Source: Lewinella sp. LCG006
GTDB lineage: Bacteria; Bacteroidota; Bacteroidia; Chitinophagales; Saprospiraceae
Reading direction: 5' to 3'
DNA length: 64,000 nucleotides
Assembly (NCBI RefSeq): GCF_040784935.1
Contig: NZ_CP160680.1
Location: 7,111,802-7,175,801 of the forward strand
Shown: positions 19,249 through 56,180 of the stretch, piece by piece
Layout of the letters: each line of letters begins with the position of its first letter
Numbering within the stretch: position 1 is the first letter of the stretch
Notes under the pieces: model-generated
What the model was told of the DNA's origin: nothing
Seen by the model: the letters and a program-made list of their open reading frames with translations, nothing else
Databases searched by the model: none
Translations under genes and position numbers: made by a program

Positions 19249-19983
19249 ATGAAGAATGCTTCTTTAGACCTCTTACGACAACTCAAACTCACCGGTATGG
19301 CCTCCGCTTACGAGGCAGCCCTGAGTTTACCCATCAACCAGCAACCCGATGTCCACGAACTCCTCGCCCGACTCGTCGATGCCGAACAGCAACACCGAGC
19401 CTTACGGCGCATGAACATGTACCTCAAGCTCAGTAAGCTACGCTACCAGGCCAATATCAAGGACATCGAATGCTCCAACCAGCGAAATCTGAGTAAGGAA
19501 AAACTAGCCACCCTGGCCGACTGTGCCTGGATCGAACGAGGAGAAAACGTACTCATCACCGGGGCTACAGGGTGTGGAAAATCTTATCTGGGCTGCGCCA
19601 TTGGTCATCACGCCTGTGTCAATGGCCACCGAACCCTTTACTTCAACATGAACCGTTTGTGCGAACAGATTACCCTGGCCCAAGCTGAGGGTTCTATTAT
19701 CAAGTGGCTCAATCAAATCCAGAAAGCACAGCTCATTATCCTCGATGACTTTGGTCTGCAACCCATCACCCACACCGTCAAACTCCTCCTTCTTCAAATC
19801 CTCGAAGACCGCTACGAAAGGGCTGCTACGATGATCTGTTCACAACTCCCCGTAGGCAGCTGGTACGAGTACTTCGATGAACCCACTATTGCTGATGCTA
19901 TCCTCGATCGTATCATCCCCAGGGCTCATCGTATCGAACTCAAAGGAAAAAGCCTCAGAAAACGTCCAAATCACTTATCTTAA
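19249..19983 (+). CDS. istB: IS21-family helper ATPase IstB
   Basis: A 244-residue AAA+ ATPase of the DnaC/IstB type. The Walker A is GATGCGKSYLGCAIG (about residues 106-120) and the Walker B is LIILDDFGLQP. The segment GSWYEYFDEPTIADAILDRI, including the ILDRI arginine region, is conserved in IstB proteins. IstB selects target DNA and activates the IstA transposase. It is transcribed with istA and ends shortly before the right terminal repeats. Confidence 0.95.
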   Translation: MKNASLDLLRQLKLTGMASAYEAALSLPINQQPDVHELLARLVDAEQQHRALRRMNMYLKLSKLRYQANIKDIECSNQRNLSKEKLATLADCAWIERGENVLITGATGCGKSYLGCAIGHHACVNGHRTLYFNMNRLCEQITLAQAEGSIIKWLNQIQKAQLIILDDFGLQPITHTVKLLLLQILEDRYERAATMICSQLPVGSWYEYFDEPTIADAILDRIIPRAHRIELKGKSLRKRPNHLS

Positions 19984-20065
19984 CACCATCAAATACCAAA
20001 CTTATCCACAAGGGGGTCAAAGCTCCGGAATGAGGGGGTCAGATAGATCGGAATACGCACCTTAT

Positions 20066-20275
20066 TCTCCTAATTTGAATCTAATAGAGCGGCTTTGGAA
20101 GTTTATGCGTAAAAAAGTCATCAGCTCTATTTACTACGATACGTATTCAAAATTCAAAGACGGAATAATTGATTTTCTCAATGACACTAAGTCACACAAG
20201 TCAGAGTTACGCAGGCTACTAACGTTGAATTTTCGTTCAGTAGGTGGGACTTCTGTATACGCCCAAACCACTTAG
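20066..20275 (+). pseudogene. IS630-family transposase, 3' part (interrupted)
   Basis: Seventy codons beginning SPNLNLIERLWKFMRKKV, which contain the catalytic Glu of the DDE triad. Removing the IS21-family element and one CCTTAT copy joins cta ccc cct tat to tct cct aat ttg, giving the standard IS630 text LPPYSPNLNLIERLWKF in frame and a 351-residue transposase. This segment cannot be translated on its own, although an overlapping longer frame enters it from the right end of istB. Confidence 0.9.
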
Positions 20276-21219: not shown

Positions 21220-21254
21220 AAGAGGTGAAGTCGCGCTTGACTTCGCCTCTTTTT
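21220..21254 (+). terminator. intrinsic terminator of the leader-peptide gene
   Basis: AGAGGTGAAGTC and GACTTCGCCTCT form a 12-bp stem (one G-T pair) with loop GCGCTT, followed by TTTTTA. It begins 15 bases after the peptide stop and reaches the stop codon of the convergent gene. Confidence 0.85.
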
Positions 21255-22782
21255 ATGATGAAAGCAGCAAGCGCTGACCTACTTCTAGCAACCATTTGCG
21301 CCCGACCAACTTAGGTGTCGCTTCTATTTCAACCAATAATCCCTTGGTAGCCAAGGTAACGTCCTCGGTGAAACGCTTGTAGATCAAGTTAATTAATCTT
21401 CTCACAAGCGATAAAAAACTCAGGTGCTGCTCAACCAAATCGGAGGAGATTTTGCCATCGCCTCTCTCCAGGTATTTACGAAAAGTATCCACCCCTGCAA
21501 TAAGTGTTTTCTCGATTATTTCTTCCAGTGTAAGGTCGAAATTATCTAAGTAAACCAATTCTACTGCGGATGTAATCATCAATTTTCGGTACCGCAAAAC
21601 GTACAACAAATGATAATCTTTACCTTCCTCCCAAGTATTGTACAAAATGGTCAGACATTCAGAAAACTGCTCGCGTAAAAAAAACAGTTCAGCACGAGCG
21701 TAATTAACGGCTAGGTCATTGCTACCTCCAGTAAGTTTGCTGCTGTAGGTATTGATGTAGTTTTCAACAAATTCATCTTCTCCACAGATACAACCTGTAA
21801 TAACTACGTTGAGATAATCATTGATGCCTTCCTCGATAACAGTTTCGGGTGACCAGGCCAATCTGCGTTTGTTCCACAATAGGATGGTTGGCCAAAGGTC
21901 TAAATGTCCATTTTTCAAAGCACGAGAAAGGGCATTTAGGGTATACTTACACAAGCTGTAGCGTTCTACAGGATCTAATTTTTCCTGTTCATCTTCAAAA
22001 AGCGTTAGAAAATCTTCGTAATACTTGGGAAAATCTTCTTGATCATACTTACTCATGAGGTAGTTGCGATGATAGAGCTCCATAAGATTCACCGTAGATG
22101 CAGGAGGCGTTGGAGGAATCTTCTTTTCATCTTTTCTGGCTGTCTTTTCTAAATTGATCCGCTCTAGCGCAAATTTACTTTTATAGGTTTGATAAAGCGC
22201 ATCAAGCTTTCCTTCCATTTCACTCAACAATGCCATTCCTATTTGTTCTCGATCAGTGCTTTGCGCGTGGTAGTGCTGATAAGCTAATTCGAAATCATCT
22301 GAGAGCTGTTGAATACCTTGAGGAGCCTCCGCATTAAGGGTTCGTAATTGCTGAATAGCCTTAGCTAGCTCATCGGGTAGCGTTTGGTTACGTAAGATAG
22401 CTTGTAGCAAACGCCAACGATGCGTTTTTTCGGGTTGCATCTCTCTTAAGACAACGATGTCAATGATGGCATCACCGAGTTTTTCGACGCAAGCACAGAG
22501 GTAATTAATGCTCAGTTCTTGCTTGCGGCCCTTGTTCCATTTATTGAGAATAAATGATCCTTTAATACTGTCATAATTATTTTTTGTAGCTAACTGAATA
22601 CGCTCAAAAAGATAAATAAGACGCTTGTTATTATTGAGTAAAGGAGAGGCCAAATAATCAGTTAATTCCTTATCACTTTCTCCAAGAAACAAGTCGTACA
22701 ACTTATTAAAGTACAAAAATGCTTCTTCGCCTTCTTTTTCTTGCTCCCAAACGATGTGAGTCACAGTCATCTTTTTCGGCAT
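21253..22782 (-). CDS. large helical protein of unknown function
   Basis: A 509-residue protein without signal peptide or membrane segments, predicted from composition to be nearly all helical. I recognise no named domain. The N-terminal 60 residues (FLYFNKLYDLFLGESDKELTDYLASPLL-type text) are followed by NYLCACVEKLGDAIIDIVVL, a Pro-rich linker near residue 225 (KKIPPTPPAST) and a C-terminal TPR-like half (NYARAELFFLREQFSECLTILYN, in part). Its layout resembles the 465-residue product at 12825-14222. It converges on the GG-leader peptide gene and diverges from the LuxR-type HTH gene, with 170 bases between the two starts. Confidence 0.75.
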   Translation of the reverse strand: MPKKMTVTHIVWEQEKEGEEAFLYFNKLYDLFLGESDKELTDYLASPLLNNNKRLIYLFERIQLATKNNYDSIKGSFILNKWNKGRKQELSINYLCACVEKLGDAIIDIVVLREMQPEKTHRWRLLQAILRNQTLPDELAKAIQQLRTLNAEAPQGIQQLSDDFELAYQHYHAQSTDREQIGMALLSEMEGKLDALYQTYKSKFALERINLEKTARKDEKKIPPTPPASTVNLMELYHRNYLMSKYDQEDFPKYYEDFLTLFEDEQEKLDPVERYSLCKYTLNALSRALKNGHLDLWPTILLWNKRRLAWSPETVIEEGINDYLNVVITGCICGEDEFVENYINTYSSKLTGGSNDLAVNYARAELFFLREQFSECLTILYNTWEEGKDYHLLYVLRYRKLMITSAVELVYLDNFDLTLEEIIEKTLIAGVDTFRKYLERGDGKISSDLVEQHLSFLSLVRRLINLIYKRFTEDVTLATKGLLVEIEATPKLVGRKWLLEVGQRLLLSS

Positions 22783-24208: not shown

Positions 24209-24216
24209 TAGCTTTG
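24209..24216 (+). promoter_or_regulatory. putative -7 promoter element of the four-gene AAA/VWA operon (TAGCTTTG)
   Basis: TAGCTTTG matches TAnnTTTG and lies 17 bases before the ATG of the AAA+ ATPase gene. No clear -33 box. Confidence 0.45.
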
Positions 24217-24232: not shown

Positions 24233-25432
24233 ATGAAAGAATTACTCCCCGCCGGAGCCCGCGCCCTCGTTTTAGCGATGCAAACGCCCTCACCCAAAGG
24301 ACATATCGGTATCCCTACATTGATTTGGGGTCGCCCTGGAGTAGGTAAATCTAGTTTTGTGGAAGCCTTGGCCAAAGATGACTTTCCTGTATTAACACTC
24401 ATTGCATCTATTCATGACCCGACAGATTTCTCAGGACTGCCTGTTTTTACAGATGGCAAGGTGCATTATGCCCGACCAGAATGGTTGGACTATTTTGCAG
24501 AAAAAAAACAAGGAATATTGTTTCTTGATGAGCTAACAACTGCTCCTCCAGCAGTACAAGCAGCTTTGCTTAGAGTTGTGTTGGAAAGAAAAGTGGGATT
24601 TTTTCCCCTGCCGGATCACGTAAGGGTGATTGCCGCCGCCAATCCACCTGATATGATGACTGGAGGATGGGATCTAAGCCCTCCTCTTCGAAATCGCTTT
24701 GTACATCTCCAATGGGATTTACCTATGGATGTTTATTTGGCTGGCATGACCAATGGTTTTGCTCAACCTGATTCACCCAAAATTCCAATTGCCCAACACC
24801 GTATCCTTATGGATAATTGGAAGTTGAAGATTGCTGCATTTTTACGACAAATGCCTGATGCTCTACACGGAGATATGGAAGAAGATGAATTCGCTTTTGC
24901 TAGTCCCCGAAGTTGGGAATACCTGGCTGCATTGCTGGCTACCTGTGAAATAGAAGGTGAAGCACCAATGCCGGAGACGATCGCCAGCACGGCTTGTTTG
25001 GAACTTGTTCGCGGATGTATCGGGGAAGGCTTAGGTGTCGCTTTTATTTCTTTTTTACTAGAATTACGCTTGCCTGACCCTGAAGAAATCCTTACCCAAA
25101 AGACACAAATAGATTTGCCACAGCTTAACGACAGTGAGGTCTTTGTCTTTTTTGGTGCCTTAGGGCATTACCTGGAACGTCATTTCACCCATGAGAAGTT
25201 GGTAGATCTAGCAACAGTATATTTCTCTTTGGTGCAAACCGTATTTGCTGATGAACGAAGAGATGTTATCTACCCTAGCTTGAAACATATTTGTCAGAAA
25301 GGATTACTGACAAAAACATTAGGCCAAGCACAAAGACGCTCAAATGAAGATAAAGCAGTGGTACTGGCTGCTATTCAATCGCTATTTATTGATGAAGGAT
25401 TGAATGACTTTATCGACGTATTCGAATCGTAA
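24233..25432 (+). CDS. MoxR-like AAA+ ATPase
   Basis: A 399-residue ATPase. Walker A is GRPGVGKS at residues 33-40, Walker B is GILFLDELTTAPPAVQAALL with Asp99 and Glu100, sensor 1 is VIAAANPP, and an arginine finger-like SPPLRNRFVHL follows; this is the pattern of the AAA_5/MoxR group. The C-terminal 200 residues are helical and specific. MoxR ATPases act as chaperones or remodelers with VWA-domain partners, and the next gene encodes exactly such a protein 17 bases downstream. It is the first gene of a compact four-gene operon. Confidence 0.9.
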   Translation: MKELLPAGARALVLAMQTPSPKGHIGIPTLIWGRPGVGKSSFVEALAKDDFPVLTLIASIHDPTDFSGLPVFTDGKVHYARPEWLDYFAEKKQGILFLDELTTAPPAVQAALLRVVLERKVGFFPLPDHVRVIAAANPPDMMTGGWDLSPPLRNRFVHLQWDLPMDVYLAGMTNGFAQPDSPKIPIAQHRILMDNWKLKIAAFLRQMPDALHGDMEEDEFAFASPRSWEYLAALLATCEIEGEAPMPETIASTACLELVRGCIGEGLGVAFISFLLELRLPDPEEILTQKTQIDLPQLNDSEVFVFFGALGHYLERHFTHEKLVDLATVYFSLVQTVFADERRDVIYPSLKHICQKGLLTKTLGQAQRRSNEDKAVVLAAIQSLFIDEGLNDFIDVFES

Positions 25433-25449
25433 AAGAGCTAATACGAGGT

Positions 25450-26721
25450 ATGGAAAAGACCAGTAAATACAAGGCAGAAGAGTCTATTCTTCGTTTCAGT
25501 AGGGCTTATGCTGCAGAGCAACTTCCTTGGTTTGCGCCGGCTCTCTATCGGTGTAGCATTGTAATTACGGAACAAGTACCCATCGCGGGTATTGATCAAC
25601 AGATGAACGTTTACTTCAATCCTTTCGTCGTTGCGAAAATTAGTGCTTCCGAAAGAAAAAAATCACTCCGTGAACTCGGCTTTTTATGGATTCACGAAAT
25701 AAGCCACATTTTAAGACGCCATGCAGAACGCGCAAGGGAAAATGGCTTCTCTGCTCAATTATGGAATATCGCGGCTGACTTTGAAATCAACGATGGTCAT
25801 TGGGAGGGCTTATTTATGCCTACGGATTTTCCGGGCTTACTTCCCAGAGATTACTTGCTGCCTAATGGTCAATTAGCGGAGAACTATTACAGCCTTCTGA
25901 GAAAGGAAGGAGATAAAAGTGAACGGCTACAAAGACTACTCGACTTAGTGATGGACGAAGGTAGCGGAGTGCACAGTCATTCCCGAATATGGGAACTCGG
26001 ATCTGCCCCCGGAACGGCGAGGCAAAATGTGATAAATGACATGGTATTATCGTTGGTTCGCAAAGAGGTTGCACAGCAATTGAAACAAGCTCCAGGGAAT
26101 ATACCCGCAAATTGGAAACGGTGGGTAGACGAAATCTTGCAACCTAAGGTAGACTGGCGCAAGGTATTGCGGCATCGGGTAAAAATGGCGTTACAGCTCA
26201 GTGTAGGGGGAAGGCTAGACTATTCCTACCAGCGCTTTAGTCGTCGTCAATCAGCTTACCACCCCATTTTTCTTCCAAGTCTCTCTGGCGATATTGAGAT
26301 GGAAATAGCTGTAGTGGTGGATACCTCTGGATCCATCTCAGCCCAAATGTTAGCGCAAGCTACGGGAGAGGTTTGTGGTATTATGAAGCGGCTACGTGTA
26401 CCCGTGACCGTTATTCCATGTGACGCCAGGGCTTACGAGCCAATAAAGATCAATACTTCTAGTGAGCGCATAAAACTTCATCAGCTCAGCGGCGGCGGTG
26501 GAACAAACATGAACGCTGGAATAAAGGCAGCCTTGGAATTGTCCAGGAAACCTGATGTCATAATTGTATTAACGGATGGTTTTACGCCATGGCCGACAAG
26601 CAAGCCGGAAGTAAGCTTATTGTTTGGTATTTTCCATCGAGGAGGAACCTCCTACCCTACTCCTCCAATGCCTCCGTTTAATACCGCTTCTGTCATTGGC
26701 ATTGATTTAGCGAAGCTTTGA
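25450..26721 (+). CDS. DUF2201-type zincin-like plus VWA domain protein
   Basis: A 423-residue protein with two parts. The N-terminal part is a putative metallopeptidase domain with a HExxH motif, IHEISHILRRHAER (His82, Glu83, His86), followed by NIAADFEIND, which may give the third ligand. The C-terminal part is a von Willebrand A domain with the MIDAS motif DTSGS at residues 291-295, the second MIDAS Thr in SGGGGTNMNAG, and LTDGFTPWP. DUF2201-like proteins pair with MoxR ATPases, here the preceding gene. Whether the zincin is active or a structural relic is unknown. The next gene starts 33 bases downstream. Confidence 0.9.
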   Translation: MEKTSKYKAEESILRFSRAYAAEQLPWFAPALYRCSIVITEQVPIAGIDQQMNVYFNPFVVAKISASERKKSLRELGFLWIHEISHILRRHAERARENGFSAQLWNIAADFEINDGHWEGLFMPTDFPGLLPRDYLLPNGQLAENYYSLLRKEGDKSERLQRLLDLVMDEGSGVHSHSRIWELGSAPGTARQNVINDMVLSLVRKEVAQQLKQAPGNIPANWKRWVDEILQPKVDWRKVLRHRVKMALQLSVGGRLDYSYQRFSRRQSAYHPIFLPSLSGDIEMEIAVVVDTSGSISAQMLAQATGEVCGIMKRLRVPVTVIPCDARAYEPIKINTSSERIKLHQLSGGGGTNMNAGIKAALELSRKPDVIIVLTDGFTPWPTSKPEVSLLFGIFHRGGTSYPTPPMPPFNTASVIGIDLAKL

Positions 26722-26754
26722 TTACCATTATCTTTTTTTTTAAAATCTCTCTGA

Positions 26755-28545
26755 ATGACTCAAAATAATAAAAAGGTTGTTTCTGCTATCATCACTATCG
26801 AGATCGACAGTCATTCCTTTGATTATGAAGTTAGCAGTAATATTCATGGTGAAGTACAGCAGGTAAAAAGTCTTTTTTTAGAGCTACCGGAAGCTGCTCA
26901 ACGGTTGACGATGATTAAGGACTTGGAGATAATTAAGCCCAAGATCGAAGCTTGGGGCAAATTATTTCACTTTTATGTACCCGCGCAATTAGTGGGAATG
27001 CGCAAGGGAGAAGATTTACAGCCATTGATAGAAGAGCTTGTAAAGTTGCGCCAGTCGGCCGGGCTTTCGCCAAAAAGCCATCATCTCAAAGATTTAACGC
27101 ACCCCTGGCATAGGGCGTTTTGGAAAGAAAGCAGTTTACTTCTGGCAGCCTACAACAAAGACAAGAAAGATAAGCGCTACGGCGCCTTGATGTTTCTCTT
27201 TCAGGACAAAGACGAAAAAATATTGTTTAAGGTCATCAGGCATCAATCTGAACATCCAACTTCAGTAGCTGAGGAATTGTTGCGGGCCAAAATTCCTATT
27301 TTATCCGATGAAAACAAGGCAGCTGCCTATCGTGCCCTAAAATCTTTCCCAAGTGAGGATACCCGAAGCTTTCTATTAAAGGCTTACGAAAAATTAGAAG
27401 GCAACGAGAGTAAAATGTTCTCATCCATACTCTACGGATTATCTGCTTATAAAGATGAGGTCATATACCAACTCACGCTGGACGCTTGGAAAAGTCTTGG
27501 AACAAAGCGCTGGCTATCGACAAATTTTTTCTTTGCCATTTTCGCTAACTTTGAGCAGCCAGAAGTGATCGACATTGCGTGGCAAGGATTGACGAAGTCT
27601 GATGCTTCTCTTCAATCCTATGATTTATTAAAAGATCGTGGAATTTCCGATCTAGCAATTTTTGAAGCTATTTGGCCAGTATTGAATTCAACCAGAGATA
27701 AAAACAATTTCGAGTGCCTTTTTGAAACACTAAGCAAAATCTACATTAACGGAAACCCCTACTTGCTTCCTAGCGGGGATGAGATATTAGACTTGTATCA
27801 GAACTTTTTTCTTATAGAACCGAATCTCAGTAAATATTACAGTATATCAATAATCTTGCATTGCGTTTACAACAATCAATTCCCTAAACGCTTGTACGAG
27901 ATTTTCCAAGAAGAAAATATCACGAAAAAGAAGTTTGCCTTGATGGTGTCCGCTAATTTATTGCAATACAACCCAAAAGCACTCCCTCTACCTACGATGA
28001 GAAAAAAAGTGGAAGAACTTATTACCGAGAATACTAGCCCACATTTCTACACCGCAGTTAGTTTACTAAAAGGCTTAGCAATTGCTCAAAACGACAAAAA
28101 GGTAATCACTCAACTGCTTGAAGTATTAAACATCGAAAATTTGCATCATTTTAAACATATCCTTAAAGCCATCAATGAGATAATGAGGGAGATCGGCTAC
28201 GAAAAAGCTGTCACAAAACCCTATTTGAAGCTTCTGAAAAATACTGAAATCGTAAAAAATTGGGAAGCACGAAATGAAATTTTCATTGCGCTCAAAATGT
28301 CTGCAGACCAATCGGTATTTAAGTGGTTAGAACAGCGATTTGCCATTCGTATTCAAGATGATTTCCATCAATTAACTTCCTCTGGCAACAACGATTTTGC
28401 GAGCTATCATGCCTTAATGGAGGGCTTACAAAAAAACATAAATACCCATCAAGCTAAAGTAAAAAACAAACGCCATTGGGCGGTTCGCTTTAAAGACTGG
28501 TTATTGGCACTAATGCATCAAGGAAAACCTTATCGTAAGCAATAG
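26755..28545 (+). CDS. operon-specific helical-repeat protein, paralog 1
   Basis: A 596-residue protein without signal peptide. The N-terminal 120 residues contain AIITIEIDSHSFDYEVSSNIHGEVQQVKSLF (in part: SNIHGEVQQVKSLF), which is nearly repeated at the start of the next gene product. The rest is made of helical pairs with HEAT-like spacing (LSDENKAAAYRALKSFPSEDT, ILYGLSAYKDEVIYQLTLDAW). I recognise no catalytic motif and no named family. It is expected to work with the MoxR-like ATPase and VWA protein encoded just upstream, as scaffold or substrate receptor. It may have arisen by tandem duplication with the following gene. Confidence 0.85.
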   Translation: MTQNNKKVVSAIITIEIDSHSFDYEVSSNIHGEVQQVKSLFLELPEAAQRLTMIKDLEIIKPKIEAWGKLFHFYVPAQLVGMRKGEDLQPLIEELVKLRQSAGLSPKSHHLKDLTHPWHRAFWKESSLLLAAYNKDKKDKRYGALMFLFQDKDEKILFKVIRHQSEHPTSVAEELLRAKIPILSDENKAAAYRALKSFPSEDTRSFLLKAYEKLEGNESKMFSSILYGLSAYKDEVIYQLTLDAWKSLGTKRWLSTNFFFAIFANFEQPEVIDIAWQGLTKSDASLQSYDLLKDRGISDLAIFEAIWPVLNSTRDKNNFECLFETLSKIYINGNPYLLPSGDEILDLYQNFFLIEPNLSKYYSISIILHCVYNNQFPKRLYEIFQEENITKKKFALMVSANLLQYNPKALPLPTMRKKVEELITENTSPHFYTAVSLLKGLAIAQNDKKVITQLLEVLNIENLHHFKHILKAINEIMREIGYEKAVTKPYLKLLKNTEIVKNWEARNEIFIALKMSADQSVFKWLEQRFAIRIQDDFHQLTSSGNNDFASYHALMEGLQKNINTHQAKVKNKRHWAVRFKDWLLALMHQGKPYRKQ

Positions 28546-28557
28546 CTCTCCATCCAT

Positions 28558-30096
28558 ATGAAACCAAATGAAACAGTGCAGGCGTTGATCACTTTTGAGA
28601 TAGAAGGACACGCGATTGATTATGAGATAACTTCTAATATACACGGTGAAGTACAGCAGGTGAAAAATCTTTTTGGGGATATTCCTGTAGCTGCCCAAAA
28701 ACTGATATTAGGCAAAGACTGGGAAGTAATTGCACCTAAAGTAGAAGGTTATCGACGGCTTTTTCGATACTTTGTTGCTGCCCAAATGTTGGAGCTTAGG
28801 AAAGGAGATGATTTACGCCCATTACTCGATAAAATTGTTCATGCTCGTCAACAAATTGGTTTACCTCCACGGCAAATTTCACTATCACAACTTACTGATA
28901 TATGGTATGTTACATTTGCAGAGTGTGTCCAAAGCATTAGGAAATTCTATAATAACGGCAAGAATGCAAAGCTTGAATCACTTGAGTATTTGTTTTTAGG
29001 AAATCCGGAAAAACTACGTGTTGCTATTGAGTATCATGGATCTTTTCGAACACCTGGTGTTGGAGAAATGATTCTAGATTGGATACCTGTACTTACAGAT
29101 GAACAACGTTTTCAAGCTTATAAATCGCTGAAAATTTATCCCCAAGCGGCAGCCAAAAAGTTACTTTTAGCAGCCTATGAAGATAAAAACAACAATAAGG
29201 GAATAGAAAATATCATCATTGGACTTTCAGCCTATAAACACGACGATACGCACCAGCTTTTTCTCCAACACGCAAAGCGTACTTCTCTTAGTTATAACGA
29301 AAAAAAAGCCATCCTAGAAGCCCTTAGAGATTCTGACAAAGAAGAGGTACTGGCATTGGCTTGGAATAACTTATTGGATAAAGACCATGGGGCACTAGCC
29401 TGTGATTTAATTAAAAAGCGAGGAGTAGAAGATCAGGAAATCGTTGATTATTTGATCACTGTTTTAGCACAAGACAATTGGGCGGAACATTTCCAAAGGG
29501 TTCTATCGCTTTTTGCTAACCATCTAAATACTAGCAAACATCAACCTTCACCAATTTGGTTACTAGATTACCTTATTCGCTTTTTTGAATTAAAAAAATA
29601 CAAGATCACGAGCTATTATGATCCTATCGTATCTTCCTTTTCCAAAATTTGTAGATACTATAACAATCAAGAGTTAGCGATAAAAATCAGTAGATGGGCA
29701 CAAGATAGTTCAGAAAACGTCCATACTTTTGTTTTCCTTTTTTCGGAACTGATGCTAAAAAAAGAGGTCTTGTATCCGCTAGATCACGACTTGAAGCCTA
29801 TTGTGAAAGCAGCAATTACAAAAGAAGTTAGTCTACAACAGAAATATGCTATTATATTGGCAGGACGTTATGCACTAAGTGATCGCAGTACGGAATTTAT
29901 TGATGATCTATTGCCTGTGTTAGCATCAAAAAGCATAGATAATTCTTGGCTGGCTGCTACTACAATCAACAAGATCATGCAGGAACTGGGTTTTGTAGAC
30001 AAGGTTAGATATTCTTACGAAAAGCGGATGAATTCCCAATCTAACCTTCGTCTTAATACAATTCTTTCAGAAGGATTAAAGCTAGCGGACCAGTAA
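28558..30096 (+). CDS. operon-specific helical-repeat protein, paralog 2
   Basis: A 512-residue paralog of the preceding product, starting 12 bases after its stop. Shared blocks include IHGEVQQVKNLF, AAQKLILGKDWEVIAPKVE, ELRKGDDLRPLLDKI, PVLTDEQRFQAYKSLK and IIGLSAYKHDDTHQLFLQHA at matching positions, while the C-terminal thirds have diverged and this copy is shorter. It also appears to be a HEAT-like helical-repeat protein. The gene is visibly AT-rich compared with the flanking metabolic genes. Last gene of the operon; no transcription terminator with a T-run was identified after it. Confidence 0.85.
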   Translation: MKPNETVQALITFEIEGHAIDYEITSNIHGEVQQVKNLFGDIPVAAQKLILGKDWEVIAPKVEGYRRLFRYFVAAQMLELRKGDDLRPLLDKIVHARQQIGLPPRQISLSQLTDIWYVTFAECVQSIRKFYNNGKNAKLESLEYLFLGNPEKLRVAIEYHGSFRTPGVGEMILDWIPVLTDEQRFQAYKSLKIYPQAAAKKLLLAAYEDKNNNKGIENIIIGLSAYKHDDTHQLFLQHAKRTSLSYNEKKAILEALRDSDKEEVLALAWNNLLDKDHGALACDLIKKRGVEDQEIVDYLITVLAQDNWAEHFQRVLSLFANHLNTSKHQPSPIWLLDYLIRFFELKKYKITSYYDPIVSSFSKICRYYNNQELAIKISRWAQDSSENVHTFVFLFSELMLKKEVLYPLDHDLKPIVKAAITKEVSLQQKYAIILAGRYALSDRSTEFIDDLLPVLASKSIDNSWLAATTINKIMQELGFVDKVRYSYEKRMNSQSNLRLNTILSEGLKLADQ

Positions 30097-30562: not shown

Positions 30563-31123
30563 ATGCAAAAACTTGTGTTTAAGAATATAACCAGCCAGCA
30601 CATTGAGGATACTTTCACTAAGACCTATCAGCGATTTAAGGCACTTCATGATCACCCCTTTACGCTGGAGCAGCTTTCGCTGAAAAACTACACCATGCGC
30701 GCACAGCCCATTATAAATTGGGCGTTCTGGCACCGCGCTACCCGACACTATCGGGTACAAACCAGTGACCATCTCCAACTACGCGAATATATCAAAATAG
30801 AAGAGCTGCCCCAAGAAGTGCTCACAGGCTGGTTTGCCCACGAATTGGGGCATATTATGGATTATCGCGAACGCTCAGCACTGAATATGATCTCTTTCCT
30901 GGTTCGCTACCTGGCCGTACCCAACTACCGGATGGGAGCCGAAAGAAGGGCTGATCTCTACGCCATTGACCACGGTTTTGGGGACGCACTGATGGCAACC
31001 AAGCACTATATTCTAGAACAGTCTAAACTCCCCGACACTTACAAGCAACGTATCCGAAAATATTACCTTTCCCCCACAGAATTGGAGACCATCTTGCAAG
31101 CTAAAGAACAAGATTTAAGTTAA
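30563..31123 (+). CDS. putative zinc metallopeptidase-like protein (HELGH)
   Basis: A 186-residue protein without signal peptide. It has a zincin motif, WFAHELGHIMDYRER (HExxH), followed about 33 residues later by GAERRADLYAIDHGFG, where Glu or Asp could be the third metal ligand, in the manner of gluzincins. A substrate is unknown. The 3' end overlaps the convergent GH3 gene by nine bases. Confidence 0.7.
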   Translation: MQKLVFKNITSQHIEDTFTKTYQRFKALHDHPFTLEQLSLKNYTMRAQPIINWAFWHRATRHYRVQTSDHLQLREYIKIEELPQEVLTGWFAHELGHIMDYRERSALNMISFLVRYLAVPNYRMGAERRADLYAIDHGFGDALMATKHYILEQSKLPDTYKQRIRKYYLSPTELETILQAKEQDLS

Positions 31124-32632: not shown

Positions 32633-32717
32633 AGGAGAATAAGTTGGTATAATAACGAAACTCACAAAAAGGAAAAGATGTTCGCAGATGATTTTGGTGG
32701 GGAGGAAAGGTAATCTT

Positions 32718-33904
32718 ATGATCGTATTGGTACGATTAGGGCGGTATTTTCCGAAGTCAGAAGGGGAAAATCGGAGGTCGGAAGTACAAATTACTCTCCG
32801 TACGAGAAGTCGGAAAGGAGAAGTATTTGAACCTAGTGACGCACGCTTCTCTTGGTTCTCGTGTGTCACATCACTTCCCACTTCCGATCTCCGACTTGGA
32901 CTCAAATCGTATGATCGTATTGGTACGATTAGGGCGGTATTTTCGGAAGTCAGAAGGGGGAAGTCGGAGGTCGGAAGTACAAATTACACTCCGTACGAGA
33001 AGTCGGAAAGGAGAAGTATTTGAACCTAGTGACGCACGCTCCTCTTGGTTCTCGTGTGTCACATCACTTCCGACTTCCCACTTCTGATCTCCGACTTGGA
33101 CTCAAATCGTATGATCGTATTGGTACGATTAGGGCGGTATTTTCCGAAGTCAGAAGGGGAAAATCGGAGGTCGGAAGTACAAATTACTCTCCGCATGAGA
33201 AGTCGGAAAGGAGAAGTATTTGAAACCTAGTGACGCACGCTCCTCTTGGTTCTCGTGTGTCACATCACTTCCGACTTCCCACTTCCGATCTCCGACTTGG
33301 ACTCAAATCGTATGATCGTATTGGTACGATTAGGGCGGTATTTTCCGAAGTCAGAAGGGGAAAATCGGAGGTCGGAAGTACAAATTACTCTCCGTACGAG
33401 AAGTCGGAAAGGAGAAGTATTTGAACCTAGTGACGCACGCTTCTCTTGGTTCTCGTGTGTCACATCACTTCCGACTTCCCACTTCCGATCTCCGACTTGG
33501 ACTCAAATCGTATGATCGTATTGGTACGATTAGGGCGGTATTTTCGGAAGTCAGAAGGGGGAAGTCGGAGGTCGGAAGTACAAATTACACTCCGTACGAG
33601 AAGTCGGAAAGGAGAAGTATTTGAACCTAGTGACGCACGCTCCTCTTGGTTCTCGTGTGTCACATCACTTCCGACTTCCCACTTCTGATCTCCGACTTGG
33701 ACTCAAATCGTATGATCGTATTGGTACGATTAGGGCGGTATTTTCCGAAGTCAGAAGGGGAAAATCGGAGGTCGGAAGTACAAATTACTCTCCGTACGAG
33801 AAGTCGGAAAGGAGAAGTATTTGAAACCTAGTGACGCACGCTCCTCTTGGTTCTCGTGTGTCACACCACTTCCGACTTCCCACTTCCGATCTCCGACTTG
33901 GACC
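32718..33904. repeat. tandem array of six ~200-bp hairpin units (ABCABC)
   Basis: Units begin at the ATGATCGTATTGG motif at 32718, 32911, 33111, 33312, 33512 and 33712, with periods of 193, 200, 201, 200 and 200 bases. Units 1/4, 2/5 and 3/6 share private variants: units 2 and 5 have GGGGGAAGTCGG and ACACTCCG, units 3 and 6 have an extra A in TTTGAAACC, units 1 and 4 have CTTCTCTTGG. Each unit folds as a long hairpin: AAGTCAGAAGGGG...GTCGGAAGT arms, then GTGACGCACG and CGTGTGTCAC around a CTCCTCTTGGTTCT loop. Open frames inside are repeat artefacts. It fills most of the 1311 bases between the GH3 and sugar dehydrogenase genes. Confidence 0.95.
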
Positions 33905-41284: not shown

Positions 41285-42517
41285 ATGCAAGACAAGGCCA
41301 TCAAACTATCGCTGTTCATCAATTATTTTGTTTTTGCCATCCTGCTCAACAGTGTCGGCATCGTCATTCTCAAATCCCAAAACGTCTATGGCGTAGACGA
41401 AGTAGCGGCCAGTACCCTAGAGCTCTTCAAAGACCTTCCCATCGCTATAGTCTCCTTCCTTGTGGCTTCCTTCCTCCCTCGTATTGGCTACAAAAAGGCC
41501 ATGCTTGCCGCTCTTTTCATCGTCACCGTAGCTTGTATCAGTATGTATTTTGGCAATTCCTTCTGGTCGGCCAAGATGCTCTTTGCCTCTGTAGGGGTAT
41601 CTTTTGCGCTGATCAAGGTATCCGTCTATTCCGTCATTGGTCTTGTCACCGATGGTGAAAAAGCCCACAACAGCCTGATGAGCAATATTGAAGGGGTCTT
41701 CATGTTTGGTATTGCCTTGGCCTATTTCCTCTTTCCAGCTTTCAACACGGAAGGTCAGCCCAATGCCTGGCTCAATGTTTATTGGCTATTGGCTGGACTG
41801 TCCATCCTCTCTTTCCTCTTTTTGTACTTCGCAAAATTTGAGGAAAATTATGAAATACCTGGCTCCGATCTTAAAGAAGACTTCATGGCCATGATCAGCC
41901 TGATCAGCCGCTTGCTCGTCATCGTTTTTGTCATCAGTGCCTTCCTTTTTGTTATGATTGAGCAGGGTATCATGACCTGGCTCCCTACGTTCAACAATCG
42001 GGTACTCGAACTCCCCGAAAACCTCGCTATCATTATGGCCAGTATCCTTGCTATTTCCCTAGGCATTGGCCGTATCATGGCAGGTGTACTCACCCAACGC
42101 GTTTCCTGGATCATCGTTCTTAGCGGTTGTCTCATTGGTGCGATGGCCATGGTCTATTTTGTCCTGCCCAGAGCCGTAAGTGCAGATATCGGTATCGTCC
42201 AAACCCTGGCCGATATTCCCCCCATCGGTTATGCTTTTCCTTTGGTAGGCTTGTTCATCGCACCTATCTACCCTCTACTCAACTCTGTAGTACTGAGCGC
42301 CTTGCCCAAAAAACTGCACAGTCCCATGTCCGGCCTCATCATCATCTTCTCGGCCATTGGCGGCACGCTGGGCTCCCGCCTCATTGGCATCCTTTTCAAA
42401 GAAGTGGGGGCAGAGACAGCCTTTAGCTACACCCTCATCCCTATGGCCATCTTGTTTCTTATGCTATTTATTTTGAAAAACCTTACTGACAAAGAGAAGG
42501 CTGCTCAAGGGGTGTAA
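41285..42517 (+). CDS. major facilitator superfamily transporter
   Basis: A 410-residue membrane protein with about 12 hydrophobic spans, e.g. LFINYFVFAILLNSVGIVIL at the N-terminus, AMLAALFIVTVACISMYFG and FVLPRAVSA after the seventh spans. The region KDLPIAIVSFLVASFLPRIGYKKA fits the MFS loop 2-3 area, and the duplication of two six-helix halves is apparent with a central loop near KFEENYEIPGSDLKED. The substrate is unknown; it is somewhat like sugar:H+ symporters of the FucP type. A stand-alone gene. Confidence 0.88.
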   Translation: MQDKAIKLSLFINYFVFAILLNSVGIVILKSQNVYGVDEVAASTLELFKDLPIAIVSFLVASFLPRIGYKKAMLAALFIVTVACISMYFGNSFWSAKMLFASVGVSFALIKVSVYSVIGLVTDGEKAHNSLMSNIEGVFMFGIALAYFLFPAFNTEGQPNAWLNVYWLLAGLSILSFLFLYFAKFEENYEIPGSDLKEDFMAMISLISRLLVIVFVISAFLFVMIEQGIMTWLPTFNNRVLELPENLAIIMASILAISLGIGRIMAGVLTQRVSWIIVLSGCLIGAMAMVYFVLPRAVSADIGIVQTLADIPPIGYAFPLVGLFIAPIYPLLNSVVLSALPKKLHSPMSGLIIIFSAIGGTLGSRLIGILFKEVGAETAFSYTLIPMAILFLMLFILKNLTDKEKAAQGV

Positions 42518-42521
42518 AATC

Positions 42522-42561
42522 ATTTAGGGACGTAGTGGCGGTCCGCCTTACGTCCCTAAAT
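42522..42561. terminator. bidirectional hairpin terminator
   Basis: ATTTAGGGACGTA and TACGTCCCTAAAT are perfect 13-bp arms with a 14-base loop between the convergent MFS and metalloprotease genes. The hairpin includes the stop codon of the latter. Confidence 0.75.
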
Positions 42562-45453
42562 AACCACACGCTTCACACTACCATCCTGATGACGTAAAAA
42601 GTAAACCCCCACTGGCAAGCCCGCCAGATTAATCGTGGTAGAAGTCCATCCAGGACTGGCACTCAACTGAAACTGGCGCACCCGCTGCCCTGTTGCAGAG
42701 AGCAATTCCAGCGTACTAGTAAAGTCCTCCACCTGTAACCAACTCACTTTTAGCTGACCATCAGCGCCTACCGGATTAGGGTACACCTGCCAATCTACAG
42801 ACAGATCAAGCAGGTTTACCTCCCTTACTTCGCTGTAAGTAAAGCTCCCGTCAAGATCTTCCTGCCGCAAGCGATAATAGCTGGTTCCAGGCAGAGGATA
42901 CGTATCAAAATGGAAATATGATTGTAATTGGTTATGGTCCCCACTACTCGCCACAAAAGCCAATTCGTGAAAATCTCGACCATCACCGGAGCGCTCAATA
43001 TAAAAGCCCCTATTACTATATTCTTGTTCCGTGGTCCAATCCAGACGAACCTCCTTTCCTACCGCTTTTGCGGTGAAAGCGCCCCACTCTACGGGTAATA
43101 CCGACAGGCTTTTTACTGCTTCCAATCGAAAATCATCCAAGGCCACAAACTCGGCCCATTGGCCACCATCATGGTAACCAAAGCGGATTTGAAAATTGGC
43201 ATTAGCGTACAAGCTGAGATCCCCTTGGTAATGAGTAAGACAAGACACTTCCCAAGCACTACTTGGTAAGCACCCGCTGGTGGTCGCATCATTTAGAACA
43301 TTGACCCAACTCGTCCCATCGTAAACATCAATGGTAAAGGCTGAATAAGCATTGGAGTAGTAGGCATTGAAATTGTACACCAAAGCCAGCTCAACCGACT
43401 CATAATTCGCAAAATCGTAAACGTTAGAATACAAATAAGCTACGCCCGTGTTTTCCTGATAAGGGCCCAGTACATCATCATCAAAATAGAGCATACAACT
43501 CCCATTGATGGTATTGGGAATCCCTCCAAAGTTGGATGTCTCACGCGTAGTATCACCCGTCAACCATTGAGCACCAGATGCGTATTCGCTCAGGCATTGC
43601 CAGCCTACAGGCAGGCTGCAATCATCAAAATTTTCTTCTACAACGATCCGGCACGCTGGTGCTGGCGGTCGGTAGGAAGTAACCTGACCACAGGATACAT
43701 AACCATTGCTATTAGGAACCACTTTTACGGTTACACTCGGTGCTGTGGTCACGGGCAAATTGGGGATAACTATCTCCTGCGGGCTCATTCCATAATCCTG
43801 TGGAAAAGCCTGTTCTCCTACCAAAACGGTGAACCCCTCTTCAGCAATCGTCTCAAAACTGACCTTCAAATTTAGGGTATAGGTGTTGTTACTCAGCTCA
43901 CAATGCGTCGTTCGGCATTCTTCCAAGGTTATTTTAGAACTGTCCTCCGTACCAAAATCTATCAGCACGGGAGAACTCATCATCTCATCATTACAAGTAT
44001 GTATTACGCGCGCACGGTAAACGGTACAAAGGTCTATTTCTTCGGTAAGCGAAAGCGCCGGTTCACCACAGGCAAAGGTATCCGTCTTGCCAGAGGTCAT
44101 ATTGGTGAGCAACACTTCCCAATTTGCCCCTCCACTAGGTGACCACTCAAGGTGGAGGGCTGGCTCCGAAGCATCAATCGTAGCCACCAAATCATCAACG
44201 GGCTGGCAAACTGTCGAACAAGCGGAAAGGCAATCATTATTAGCAAGATAATTATCTACAATACTCGCAGCATTGATTTCACAAAAAGCCCAATCTCCCC
44301 GCGACCATTCCGTAGCCAGGTTCACCGTAGGATCCATAATATAGGGTGGACGATTTGTTGTATAACATTCGATTTGCGCACCGGTATAATTGTGGCTACA
44401 GCCAAAATTGTGTCCTATCTCATGGGCGGTCATCACTCTCAGGTAACCTGCACTACCTGTAAAGTCCTCCAAAATGTGATAACCATTTTCACTACAAAAA
44501 GTCCCCACGTAAGCCAGCCCAATCACACTGCCACTACCTGAGCTCTGATAGTTGCGCCGCGACCAAAATTGCCCCAAGTCATGCTCCTCCTGAAAACCAC
44601 CCGCCAGGCTCCACGCTTTGAAACTCTCTAGTAGCGGCAGGGCTTCTTCTCCACTGTACCAGGGGTCACTCTCTGTCACCAGCGGCATCACCAATTCTGA
44701 AATACGGAGGTAAACACCCTGGGAAAAATCATCGTCAAAATTGCCATTGACATTGTTCAGCACTCCTTCCAGTTGGGCCAATACCGCCCCGACAGAACCA
44801 TAATGCGCTAGCATTGAATAATCTGCAGCAATGGCCAAGTCTACCTCCACACATCCGCCCCTGGCGCCACCGGCCACTTCATTACCTAGGCGAGCAGTTT
44901 CTGTTTGACCACACCGCAGATCGGTTTGTGGCAGTACATCCATTGTCCTGTAAATCAGGTAAGTCGTTGACTCGGCATTTGCTACAAAACGCTTAAGCGG
45001 CTCTATGTACCATAGTTCCTCTCCCAGATCAACATATCCATAAATAAAATCATCGTTAATGGTCAGGCGAATATCTCTGCTCCCCTCGACGCCCCGAAAA
45101 GTAGTTACACGATTATCGGGCAGTCGTTCCTGCCGTCTTCCTCCAGGGGTGAGTAGAGCCAAAGAAAAGGAAGGTGTACGCACCGGAGCGGGCACTAAAC
45201 GCAAGGACCAATTCATCCCATTTGGAAAAAACCAATCCATCTGAATATCATTACCTGCACGCTGAACATAATTATTGATCTCCTCGGCCGGCAACTGCAC
45301 CAGGTGGTAGTTGCTGAAATACTTATTCAATTCCGTAGTTTCAAGCACTACTGTTGTTCCTGAAAAACGCTCCCAATTTTGCCCTAATAATAGCGATGGC
45401 GCCACAAACAACAATAGCAGTACAAGCTTGTTGGCACAAGTTAGGCTTCTCAT
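42556..45453 (-). CDS. secreted reprolysin-like (M12B-type) zinc metalloprotease with T9SS sorting domain
   Basis: A 965-residue secreted protease. After a signal peptide and a propeptide-like region (to about residue 200), the catalytic domain begins at CVEVDLAIAADYSMLAHYG and contains the metzincin zinc motif MTAHEIGHNFGCSHNY, with His344, and later YIMDP as Met-turn. A fibronectin-like region (PVDDLVATIDASEPALHLEWS, in part), a jelly-roll-type region with the text VYDFANYESVELALVYN, and a T9SS type A tail (YPNPVGADGQLKVSW...DGSVKRVVI) follow. It likely degrades extracellular proteins. Confidence 0.92.
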   Translation of the reverse strand: MRSLTCANKLVLLLLFVAPSLLLGQNWERFSGTTVVLETTELNKYFSNYHLVQLPAEEINNYVQRAGNDIQMDWFFPNGMNWSLRLVPAPVRTPSFSLALLTPGGRRQERLPDNRVTTFRGVEGSRDIRLTINDDFIYGYVDLGEELWYIEPLKRFVANAESTTYLIYRTMDVLPQTDLRCGQTETARLGNEVAGGARGGCVEVDLAIAADYSMLAHYGSVGAVLAQLEGVLNNVNGNFDDDFSQGVYLRISELVMPLVTESDPWYSGEEALPLLESFKAWSLAGGFQEEHDLGQFWSRRNYQSSGSGSVIGLAYVGTFCSENGYHILEDFTGSAGYLRVMTAHEIGHNFGCSHNYTGAQIECYTTNRPPYIMDPTVNLATEWSRGDWAFCEINAASIVDNYLANNDCLSACSTVCQPVDDLVATIDASEPALHLEWSPSGGANWEVLLTNMTSGKTDTFACGEPALSLTEEIDLCTVYRARVIHTCNDEMMSSPVLIDFGTEDSSKITLEECRTTHCELSNNTYTLNLKVSFETIAEEGFTVLVGEQAFPQDYGMSPQEIVIPNLPVTTAPSVTVKVVPNSNGYVSCGQVTSYRPPAPACRIVVEENFDDCSLPVGWQCLSEYASGAQWLTGDTTRETSNFGGIPNTINGSCMLYFDDDVLGPYQENTGVAYLYSNVYDFANYESVELALVYNFNAYYSNAYSAFTIDVYDGTSWVNVLNDATTSGCLPSSAWEVSCLTHYQGDLSLYANANFQIRFGYHDGGQWAEFVALDDFRLEAVKSLSVLPVEWGAFTAKAVGKEVRLDWTTEQEYSNRGFYIERSGDGRDFHELAFVASSGDHNQLQSYFHFDTYPLPGTSYYRLRQEDLDGSFTYSEVREVNLLDLSVDWQVYPNPVGADGQLKVSWLQVEDFTSTLELLSATGQRVRQFQLSASPGWTSTTINLAGLPVGVYFLRHQDGSVKRVVI

Positions 45454-46018
45454 AGTAATTTTCTTTCATGTGTAAAATCGAAAAGTCGCCTTGTGCTGTT
45501 GATAGTGTTTAATACAAGAGAACAGCCGTTATCGCTGCGGATAACAGTTCATTAATTCATTATCATTTTTAGTTAGACAGTTACTGAAAAAGCCATGACA
45601 ACAGTACTGCACAAAAGCAGTACCCCATCAAAGACGCCAAAAAGATGTGCTGTTGAAAGTGTCCGTTAAAAAAGCGATGAGCAAAGACCTTGACCTTTGC
45701 TGCACCACTACTGTGGGAGTGTGTTTGTTGTTCTTACGCGAAAACTAATGAACAGGGTTCATTCCTTTAGAAAGCCAGATGCACAATAGTGCAGATGGGT
45801 GTAATAGATGATGTGGTATTGTTAAATGTCTACGACTAAGATAAGGTAAAAAATACCATATATAAAATTTTATTATAAATTTATTTCTAATGAATCAAGC
45901 CTAACAAATCATCTAAGCTGGACTTTCGCATTCACCGGATGCCGTAAAAAGATTAAAAGTAGAAAGTATTAGGATTTGAAAACGCGAAGTGAGCCGTATC
46001 GCTTGTCGAAAGTCCATC
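45454..46018. other. 565-bp non-coding stretch
   Basis: No convincing gene. It separates two minus-strand units. It includes an AT-rich block at about 45848-45890 (ACCATATATAAAATTTTATTA) and, at its right end, copy B of the TAAGCTGGACTTTCG element. Nothing else was recognised. Confidence 0.5.
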
Positions 46019-46019
46019 T
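45914..46019. repeat. dispersed palindromic element, copy B (full-length)
   Basis: Bounded by TAAGCTGGACTTTCG on the left and CGAAAGTCCATCTCA on the right, which form a terminal inverted repeat of GGACTTTCG. The interior AAGATTAAAAGTAGAAAG...TAGGATTTGAAAACGCGAA resembles copy A near 4270-4308. The right end touches the stop codon of the YCII gene. Confidence 0.55.
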
Positions 46020-46450
46020 CAGAACAACTGTGCCCCCACCGCAGCCCAAAACGGGTGAATTTCCACCACCAGTCGACCAGCAAGCACCGCGGGATCTTGA
46101 CTCGCGAGTTTTACCGCTTCTTCGTAAGTGGGAGTAGAATAGATGACAACACCCTGAATACCACTATCATCGGCAAATGGCCCCGCCAGACAAATTTTCC
46201 GCTGCCGACCTAGTTCTGCCAGATGTGCAAGATGCCCTTCTTGAATTTTTGCGGCAGTGGCTTCGTCCTGGTCACGGCGTGGGCCCACTTTCAAAAAGCA
46301 CATAAAATACTGCTTCATCAAATAAGTAGTATCACCAGACTGATGGCTGAACGTCTGAAAACCTACGGTATCGATGGGCATAGATTGGGCTTGAAGCCTA
46401 TTGCCTTCAAGGCCAAACAGTACGAAAAGGAGCAGAACAAATAATCTCAT
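46019..46450 (-). CDS. exported YCII-domain protein
   Basis: A 143-residue protein with an N-terminal signal peptide (MRLFVLLLFVLFGLEGNRLQAQS). The mature part has the YCII ferredoxin-like pattern: YFMCFLKVGPRRDQD, a conserved His in QEGHLAHLAELGRQRKICLAGPF (in part), and EEAVKLASQDPAVLAGRLVVEIHPFW. YCII domains may be small enzymes related to muconolactone isomerase-like folds. The start at MRLF was used; the upstream TTG is weaker. It follows the DUF6438-like gene by five bases, so they form an operon. Confidence 0.85.
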   Translation of the reverse strand: MRLFVLLLFVLFGLEGNRLQAQSMPIDTVGFQTFSHQSGDTTYLMKQYFMCFLKVGPRRDQDEATAAKIQEGHLAHLAELGRQRKICLAGPFADDSGIQGVVIYSTPTYEEAVKLASQDPAVLAGRLVVEIHPFWAAVGAQLF

Positions 46451-46455
46451 GATGG

Positions 46456-47193
46456 TCAATTTCGTGGTGAAAGATTCATTGTTTTATTAAACTCCGCACT
46501 CAACACATATTCATTCCGCCTTACTAATCCTAGCATTTCTTCCGGGTTGATTCGCTCAGGATTAAATCGAAACAACCAATAAGGACTATTTGGGGCGAGC
46601 CGTTTAACGATCTGCAAATCCTGTTTAGCAAACTGAATAATCCAAACGTTTGGATCTACTTCCGACGACAAGTTTACCAATAGCTCATCCGCAATGACGT
46701 TCTCAGGCATCCCGTAGTTGCTACCTGCCGCTTGTTTCTCCCAACCACCACTTTCCGCGATGGCCGTGAGTTTTTCTTCCAGTTCCATAATCTTTGCAGG
46801 GCGCCCGTCCTTACCTTTCACCGACTTTGACTGCTCGCCATCATGGAAGGAAATGGTTACCGTCGCCAAATCCGGAATTTGGGCTTTATAAGCATTCTGA
46901 AAATTCCAAAAATTGGATGACTCGAAGTCTTTGATCAAATTGCGATAAGTCGTCTGATCCAATAATTTCGTGTGCAAACCAATCCGATTGGTAAACTGCT
47001 GGCCTTCATAAGCCACAACACCACCTTCATAAATAGTAAGTTTATACACTGGACAACTACCAAAGCAAGGGCCTTTGAACATTTCAATCCGGGGATCAAG
47101 CTGGTCCAGGTCTTTGGTCGTCAATGGTCGGCAGGTTGCCGCCAGAAAAATAAATGCACCGGCGGCCAGGATAAGGAAGTGTAGCTTACGCAT
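46456..47193 (-). CDS. DUF6438-like lipoprotein
   Basis: A 245-residue predicted lipoprotein with signal peptide MRKLHFLILAAGAFIFLAATC (lipobox Cys21). The block EMFKGPCFGSCPVYKLTIYEGGVVAYEG (in part GPCFGSCPVYKLTIYEGG) is the hallmark of the DUF6438 family, which is common in Saprospiria and flavobacteria; function unknown. The remaining 130 residues (GMPENVIADELLVNLSSEVD) form a second domain of unknown role. Upstream partner of the YCII protein gene. Confidence 0.85.
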   Translation of the reverse strand: MRKLHFLILAAGAFIFLAATCRPLTTKDLDQLDPRIEMFKGPCFGSCPVYKLTIYEGGVVAYEGQQFTNRIGLHTKLLDQTTYRNLIKDFESSNFWNFQNAYKAQIPDLATVTISFHDGEQSKSVKGKDGRPAKIMELEEKLTAIAESGGWEKQAAGSNYGMPENVIADELLVNLSSEVDPNVWIIQFAKQDLQIVKRLAPNSPYWLFRFNPERINPEEMLGLVRRNEYVLSAEFNKTMNLSPRN

Positions 47194-47241
47194 AATCAGG
47201 GAAACTTTTGTTTGTGTGCAATGATAAACATTTTTGGAGAT

Positions 47242-48492: not shown

Positions 48493-48501
48493 AATATTGA
48501 A

Positions 48502-48533
48502 GTTTTAGCTGGACATTCGACGAAAGTGCAGCT
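48502..48533. repeat. short copy C of the TAAGCTGGACTTTCG element
   Basis: TTTAGCTGGACATTCGACGAA and its mirror GTGCAGCTTA form a near-perfect palindrome: the outer TAGCTG/CAGCTTA and inner TTCG-ACGAA pair with few mismatches. It looks like two element ends joined without the interior found in copy B. Confidence 0.4.
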
Positions 48534-49867: not shown

Positions 49868-50132
49868 GCTCTTAGTATTCAAGGTTAACCACAGGGCAAT
49901 TTACAAAATGTTTTAAATAAAATGATATTTAAACTTTTATTGCACCCAAATAGGCAAGCTGCCTGGAAGACCCGAACGCAGTGAGGGGACCGCAAGGACG
50001 GCGTCCAAAAGAGAATTACTAATCAGGTACCAAGTAGAGGGTAAAGGGACTTTGATGGTTCCAAATTCGAAATTCCACCAAGTACCACGTACCTTGTACG
50101 ATATTCTACTCACCCAAAATTCATTCGCTTAC

Positions 50133-51584: not shown

Positions 51585-51592
51585 TTTCAAAA

Positions 51593-53236: not shown

Positions 53237-53485
53237 GATACGTTGGATTAAGTAGACTTTTAGTTTTAGGGGCTGAGTTCTTATTGTCAAAATTCGCGAA
53301 ATCGGGTCGCTGCATCATGATCTTGATGCACCAATATACTAAACAACGCGCGAATGGTCAGAAAGCCACTTAAAAGGATGTTAAATTCTGTCCCTTTGTC
53401 GTTATCTTTTGTTAGAAATCGATGGTTGCTTATCTTGCGGCACTTTGAACCGACTGTCCTCTAACGCCACCCAATACCTGCTACC

Positions 53486-55198: not shown

Positions 55199-55203
55199 TC
55201 CTG

Positions 55204-56100: not shown

Positions 56101-56104
56101 AAAC

Positions 56105-56178: not shown

Positions 56179-56180
56179 TA

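Follow-up and report, generated by a model that had tools for sequence, protein, structure and literature searches.

When 298 genomes from the family of the host were searched, a group of related alpha-solenoid proteins, two of which are encoded side by side in Lewinella sp. LCG006, turned up only in those in which a gene of one particular ATPase/DUF2201 pair was found as well. The two solenoid genes (genes 3 and 4) directly follow such a pair in a 64,000-nucleotide stretch of the 7.5 Mb host genome (contig NZ_CP160680.1), which is referred to here as the window. Gene 1 encodes a MoxR-type AAA+ ATPase, and gene 2 a DUF2201 protein that joins a zincin-like part to a VWA domain (Table 1). Pairs of this kind are already known; no earlier description of the solenoid family or of its coupling to the pair was found in the literature searched, which did not extend to subscription papers. 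We read the set as a protein-remodelling machine of two genes that has exchangeable solenoids of its own as clients or adaptors, and judge the chances for and against this to be about even.

The sample searched comprised 112 genera. Few candidates were scored per genome, so that copy numbers are lower bounds. Members of the solenoid family were found in 15 genomes. Close relatives of gene 2, defined by at least 44% identity and E below 1e-50, occur in 17 of the 47 genomes that match gene 2 at all at 1e-10; close relatives of gene 1 likewise occur in 17 genomes, and either gene of the close pair in 18. Of the 15 solenoid genomes, the close gene 2 is present in 14 and the close gene 1 also in 14; 13 have both and all 15 at least one, which upholds the dedicated partnership proposed in an earlier note made from the sequence alone. 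The exceptions to having both genes are G156, with no gene 2 detected, and G253, with no gene 1 detected, and both are fragmented assemblies (G numbers denote genomes, the host being G000). Fisher's exact test gives p = 1e-22 by genome and 2e-11 by genus (8 of 112 genera), uncorrected for kinship among the genomes. In G062 and G218, which belong to the host's genus, neither a solenoid gene nor the close pair was found. Across the phylum, gene 2 was matched at E <= 1e-20 in 2 of 395 genomes, both belonging to the host's family.

Linkage is looser than co-occurrence. In nine of the 15 solenoid genomes, pair and solenoid gene are neighbours, the solenoid gene standing after gene 2 in some (G000, G155, G164, G006) and before gene 1 in others (G160, G055, G063, G151, G156), with six solenoid genes in a row in G055. 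Elsewhere (G035, G137, G207, G253, G193, G199) solenoid genes were seen only away from the pair, some contigs being too short to judge. The coupling thus extends to unlinked genes, since in these six of the 15 genomes no solenoid gene was seen next to the pair. The same locus is present in the congener Lewinella cohaerens DSM 23179 (G155), and the domain set stands side by side in other genera as well, a recurrence by which the adjacency in the window is more than chance. Flanking genes (128 open reading frames, ORFs, at 16 loci) are common to loci only within one genus, except for one 24% match, and the pair with its solenoids therefore constitutes a travelling unit.

The compact four-gene operon described in the earlier note does not recur as such in the neighbourhoods of relatives. 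Adjacency of solenoid and pair stood up in the nine genomes named; a constant number, order and linkage did not. A fixed four-gene system was rejected, since the locus holds a single solenoid gene in L. cohaerens and six in G055, since the 6 of 15 have none beside the pair, and since three genomes with the pair have none detected. The four genes represent one version of a broader arrangement in which copy number, order and linkage vary while an N-terminal G-E/P block of the solenoids stays.

Other repeat proteins were also seen next to the pair. In G102, which has the pair and no solenoid that we could find, an 807-residue leucine-rich repeat (LRR) protein (L114:5470-7893) is encoded 15 bases upstream of it; this gene also stands a short way downstream of one for DNA polymerase III alpha. 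A plasmid of Allomeiothermus silvanus (Deinococcota) encodes an LRV/HEAT-repeat protein (L169:3767-4951) directly upstream of DUF2201 and MoxR genes, and this protein shows no match to the N-terminal block of the solenoids. Relatives of gene 2 occur in 114 plasmid records. Ten of these neighbourhoods were read, two of them lacking annotation; a repeat protein stands beside the pair in one, and six neighbours in five others gave no match to a repeat family. A general repeat-protein partner of the pair is accordingly a weak candidate, the LRR gene of G102 being tied to the polymerase gene as well.

Neither gene 3 nor gene 4 scores above cut-off against any model in Pfam or NCBIfam. The closest approach is to HEAT_2, with 17.8 and 15.3 bits, respectively, against a cut-off of 27.7; among ten relatives scanned, a Pfam HEAT cut-off is passed by six, of which two score high (82 and 93 bits), and missed by four. 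Gene 4 is 33% identical to gene 3 over its residues 5-492. An iterated profile returned 25 ORFs of the family from the first set of loci, two of which are pieces of a single L. cohaerens gene. An AlphaFold2 model of gene 3, built from a 22-row alignment (mean predicted local distance difference test score 83.3, predicted template modelling score 0.72), shows strands at residues 8-17, 20-29 and 34-39, a long helix at 46-79, and then an alpha-solenoid. Foldseek returned eight hits at E <= 0.001 for this model, all general HEAT/ARM solenoids such as the PP2A scaffold, importins and designed repeats, which superpose poorly on it (root-mean-square deviation 13 to 21). The two paralogs had been described beforehand as HEAT-like proteins outside named families, and this description stands.

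The most constant part of the family is its N-terminal block. Column conservation is highest at residues 26-50, and mean pairwise identity over 231 pairs is 34% for residues 12-58 vs 19% for the rest. G32 and P45 are unchanged in all 31 rows of the alignment; position 33 is E in 25 rows, K in four, H in one and T in one. Outside the host's family, 35 of the 395 phylum genomes match the solenoid profile when at most three candidates per genome are scored, and each listed match starts at profile position 212 or beyond; these matches are HEAT repeats without the N-terminal block. A hydrophobic C-terminal segment, perhaps a membrane tail, was seen in 3 of 26 members examined (456 and 568 residues at L042, 564 residues at L045).

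In the solenoid tree, genes 3 and 4 are sisters (support 99/99), and two neighbour pairs in G055 are joined (100/99 and 96/86); copies therefore arose in part by local duplication. The pair in G164 is without support (89/41). A third copy in the host, G000:C1:3244587-3246389, is unlinked to the locus.

When compared with L. cohaerens in steps of 150 bases, the DNA upstream of gene 1 is 68-76% identical, that of genes 1 and 2 73-91%, the ten steps of gene 4 89-99%, and the DNA beyond gene 4 73-84%. Seven blocks longer than 1 kb that match L. cohaerens in window positions 42000-61999 are 73-84% identical. Against surrounding DNA at 68-84%, gene 4 was therefore probably exchanged recently between the congeners. 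Synonymous divergence (dS) is 0.46 for gene 1 and 0.64 for gene 2, and in gene 4 it is 0.25 over the first 119 codons and 0.10 over the other 389; it was not estimable for both flanking genes. The gene 4 protein is 93-96% identical between congeners, with a ratio of nonsynonymous to synonymous divergence (dN/dS) of 0.12-0.16. The unlinked solenoid copy is 88% identical between the host and L. cohaerens, its two neighbours 84% and 71%. The L. cohaerens locus is without gene 3, and its single solenoid gene opens with gene 3-like codons and continues as gene 4, an arrangement that would fit a deletion between genes 3 and 4. Its frame is broken into an N-terminal piece of 130 residues and a piece of 423, either by an assembly error or as a pseudogene.

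Gene 1 belongs with the MoxR/AAA_5 ATPases, scoring 37.3 bits against Pfam AAA_5 (cut-off 22) with Walker A and B present. Pairwise identity among 15 aligned relatives ranges from 46 to 92% (mean 56%), and the closest solved relative of gene 1 is an AAA module of midasin (E 8e-11). Gene 2 is a DUF2201 protein by both Pfam models, with 89.9 bits for DUF2201_N (PF13203, cut-off 23.2) and 61.3 bits for the VWA model DUF2201 (PF09967, cut-off 26.4). These scores confirm the MoxR and zincin/VWA pair first recognised by motif. Mean pairwise identity for gene 2 is 51% (12 rows), and neither gene 2 nor gene 3 has a convincing solved relative by sequence search. The metal ion-dependent adhesion site (MIDAS) of its VWA domain is complete: D291, S293, S295 and T352 are invariant in 16 rows, and D376 is present in at least 90%, one row being masked there. 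With its HEISH motif, the zincin-like part may be a peptidase. Close relatives also keep H91, D110 and N114; distant rows carry HEILH, HELLH or HQILH in place of HEISH. In DUF2201 proteins of genus g36, the zincin-like part is separated from the VWA domain by a long insert that is acidic and of low complexity (L123:2175-3812, L124:9342-10715).

MoxR ATPases with VWA partners remodel proteins. In the machine that we propose, gene 1 would form the ATPase ring established for the MoxR family, and gene 2 would be its VWA partner, gripping a client by the MIDAS metal site for the ATPase to pull on or remodel; the zincin-like part may cut the client or merely hold it. The constant N-terminal beta part of the solenoids would be the handle, held by the MIDAS through E33, and each solenoid would bind its own target, so that one machine could serve several solenoids. 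Physical binding, the E33-MIDAS contact, and remodelling or cutting are steps that we infer. The N-terminal part is read as a handle because gene 2 has a full MIDAS, because the G-E of the solenoids is conserved within their most constant part, and because midasin provides a precedent. The MIDAS domain of midasin (Rea1) holds the ubiquitin-like (UBL) domains of Rsa4 and Ytm1 via a conserved glutamate (E114 and E80, respectively; PMC6624252). Both systems combine an AAA+ ring with a MIDAS, and the holding of clients through a conserved glutamate is proposed for the solenoids by analogy. Midasin differs in being one giant eukaryotic chain with ribosome clients that carry UBL domains, whereas the Lewinella set consists of separate proteins and the N-terminal part of its solenoids looks unrelated.

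Several observations weigh against this proposal. E33 gives way to K, H or T in six of the 31 rows, namely the two G164 copies and one copy each from G207, G055, G199 and G006; a metal contact of the E33 kind would not be possible in these six, and an E33 contact is unlikely to be universal. The N-terminal part also looks unrelated to UBL domains. Both pair genes are present with no solenoid detected in G102, G242 and G285 (68% complete). Elsewhere the pair does without the solenoid family: no solenoid lies within the examined stretch of any of 80 viral loci, and a repeat protein of any kind adjoins the pair in one of the ten neighbourhoods read from the 114 plasmid records. The viral loci were kept from 292 relatives of gene 1, and 78 of the 80 also have a gene 2 relative. 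Phage records with a gene 2 relative number 533, all below 60% identity.

Phages in fact supply the published precedent for the pair. In Iyer et al. (2021, PMC7824862), MoxR is reported next to a metallopeptidase-vWA protein in group 2.2 jumbo phages, with a proposed role in virion assembly, and genes 1 and 2 are of this kind, a MoxR AAA+ ATPase gene adjoining that of a vWA protein which carries a metallopeptidase domain at its N-terminus. The Lewinella set differs in being chromosomal and in having a HEAT-type partner family. The claim of an undescribed system thus does not extend to the pair, given what that source already describes. The second precedent is the MoxR-vWA ternary systems, proposed conflict systems with a variable third component of the VMAP, iSTAND, FtsH or beta-propeller type, as set out by Kaur et al. 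(2020, PMC7159879). There, too, MoxR and vWA are combined with a variable third component, and HEAT repeats are among the domains of the vWA component. In Lewinella, by contrast, the place of the third component is taken by separate HEAT-type solenoid proteins that have an N-terminal block of their own, and the peptidase is N-terminal to the VWA domain, with no C-terminal effector seen. At E <= 1, neither gene 3 nor gene 4 matches a Pfam model of such third components, and gene 1 scores 11.6 bits against bpMoxR of the beta-propeller systems, below the cut-off of 27. The set is therefore not one of the ternary systems that the earlier note mentioned.

A further comparison leads to a different reading of the set. 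CbbQ-CbbO, NorQ-NorD and RavA-ViaA each consist of a MoxR ATPase working with a VWA protein in the activation or maturation of an enzyme or complex, and known MoxR-VWA pairs mostly act in this way. They are without an expanded solenoid family and are not known to have a zincin part. By extension, genes 1 and 2 might be a cofactor or assembly chaperone that activates or matures one enzyme or complex, with the solenoids as scaffolds of that complex. HEAT solenoids are typical scaffolds, and the jumbo-phage pair was itself proposed to act in virion assembly (PMC7824862); yet no enzyme gene is common to the flanks across genera, and several divergent solenoids per genome fit a single complex poorly. 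We think this unlikely. A conflict system, in which the solenoids would sense invaders and the ATPase and metallopeptidase-VWA protein respond, seems a shade less likely again. It would accord with what is proposed for the ternary systems (PMC7159879), and it fits the patchy occurrence of the solenoids, their changing copy number, the recent exchange of gene 4 and the frequency of this kind of pair on phage contigs. Searches with PADLOC-DB 2023 gave, however, only weak matches to the four proteins (24.8 bits at best, for gene 1 to RtcR-type ATPases, 13.3 bits for gene 4 to Cas8g, none for genes 2 and 3) and, at E <= 1e-10, scattered matches to only four models, one member each, among 63 flanking proteins. 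Nor is there a fused nuclease, pore or other toxic effector, and gene 4 is constrained between the congeners rather than diversifying. Defence, raised earlier as a role, is possible, with nothing in this analysis pointing to it.

The solenoids might instead be proteolytic substrates that gene 1 unfolds and the zincin-like part of gene 2 then cuts. In favour of this, the HEISH motif is kept in 11 of 11 close relatives covering the site, together with H91, D110 and N114. No cleavage site is visible in the solenoids, however, and the motif is altered to HQ in two of the four distant relatives aligned, so that hydrolysis is not general in the wider family; we consider this reading improbable. That genes 3 and 4 are chance neighbours with no tie to genes 1 and 2 is very improbable indeed. 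The loose linkage, with six of 15 solenoid genomes lacking adjacency, would suit it, but the co-occurrence counts disfavour it, for they hold for unlinked copies, and adjacency recurs in both orders in nine genomes.

Table 1. Genes and sequence features of the Lewinella sp. LCG006 locus (window coordinates)
Feature	Position	Strand	Basis
Gene 1, MoxR-type AAA+ ATPase, 399 aa	24233..25432	+	AAA_5 match
Walker A, GRPGVGKS	24329..24352	+	G33, P35, G36, G38, K39, S40 invariant in 15 aligned relatives
Walker B, ILFLDE	24515..24532	+	L96-E100 invariant in 15 aligned relatives
Gene 2, DUF2201 protein, zincin-like N-terminal part and VWA, 423 aa	25450..26721	+	PF13203, PF09967
Zincin-like motif HEISH, gene 2	25693..25707	+	HEISH in 11 of 11 close relatives covering the site
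MIDAS motif DTSGS, gene 2 VWA	26320..26334	+	alignment of 16 rows
Gene 3, solenoid protein, 596 aa	26755..28545	+	AlphaFold2 model, family profile
Constant N-terminal block, gene 3 (residues 8-58), three strands and start of long helix	26776..26928	+	model, conservation
G32-E33 of gene 3, loop before strand 3	26848..26853	+	31-row alignment
Gene 4, solenoid protein, paralog of gene 3, 512 aa	28558..30096	+	alignment, tree
Constant N-terminal block, gene 4	28573..28725	+	alignment to gene 3 and 20 relatives

The four ORFs were confirmed, with the overall extent, the lengths of the two paralogs and the intergenic gaps (17, 33 and 12 bases) as the earlier note gave them, and its motifs GRPGVGKS, ILFLDELT, HEISH, DTSGS and the shared IHGEVQQVK were all found in the translations. 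The promoter element it placed upstream, TAGCTTTG at 24209-24216, has no evidence in its favour, because the frequency of TANNTTTG in the window lies within the spread of shuffled sequences (61 occurrences vs 50.4 expected, with 7 of 100 shuffles reaching 61). G+C content falls to 0.37-0.40 over genes 3 and 4, compared with 0.43-0.50 in the kilobases at 23-27 and 30-36 kb, and a similar dip occurs at 20-23 kb. A 509-residue ORF in that low G+C stretch (21253-22782, minus strand) has no Pfam, NCBIfam or PADLOC match at E <= 1, and an ORF beside it (19877-20275, plus strand) resembles the end of an IS630-type transposase. Downstream of gene 4, a 186-residue ORF (30563-31123, plus strand) carries a zincin-like AHELGH motif and has no Pfam match at E <= 1. 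A tandem array of about six 200-base units with 96% matches (32712-33903) lies beside and partly under mechanically called ORFs at 32688-33688.

The substrates of most MoxR-VWA machines are open, and the solenoids described here appear as clients or adaptors named by the genome itself. We advance, as a conjecture that we hold to be doubtful, that the locus is a bacterial counterpart of the relation between midasin and its clients: one machine with a private, expanding solenoid family that shares a handle for the MIDAS, the solenoids being swapped by recombination while the machine stays. If the client reading is right, the conserved glutamate and the MIDAS site would give direct and inexpensive access to the question of how targets are chosen by a bacterial MoxR-VWA pair, and the gene set would be a small model of midasin-type client handling.

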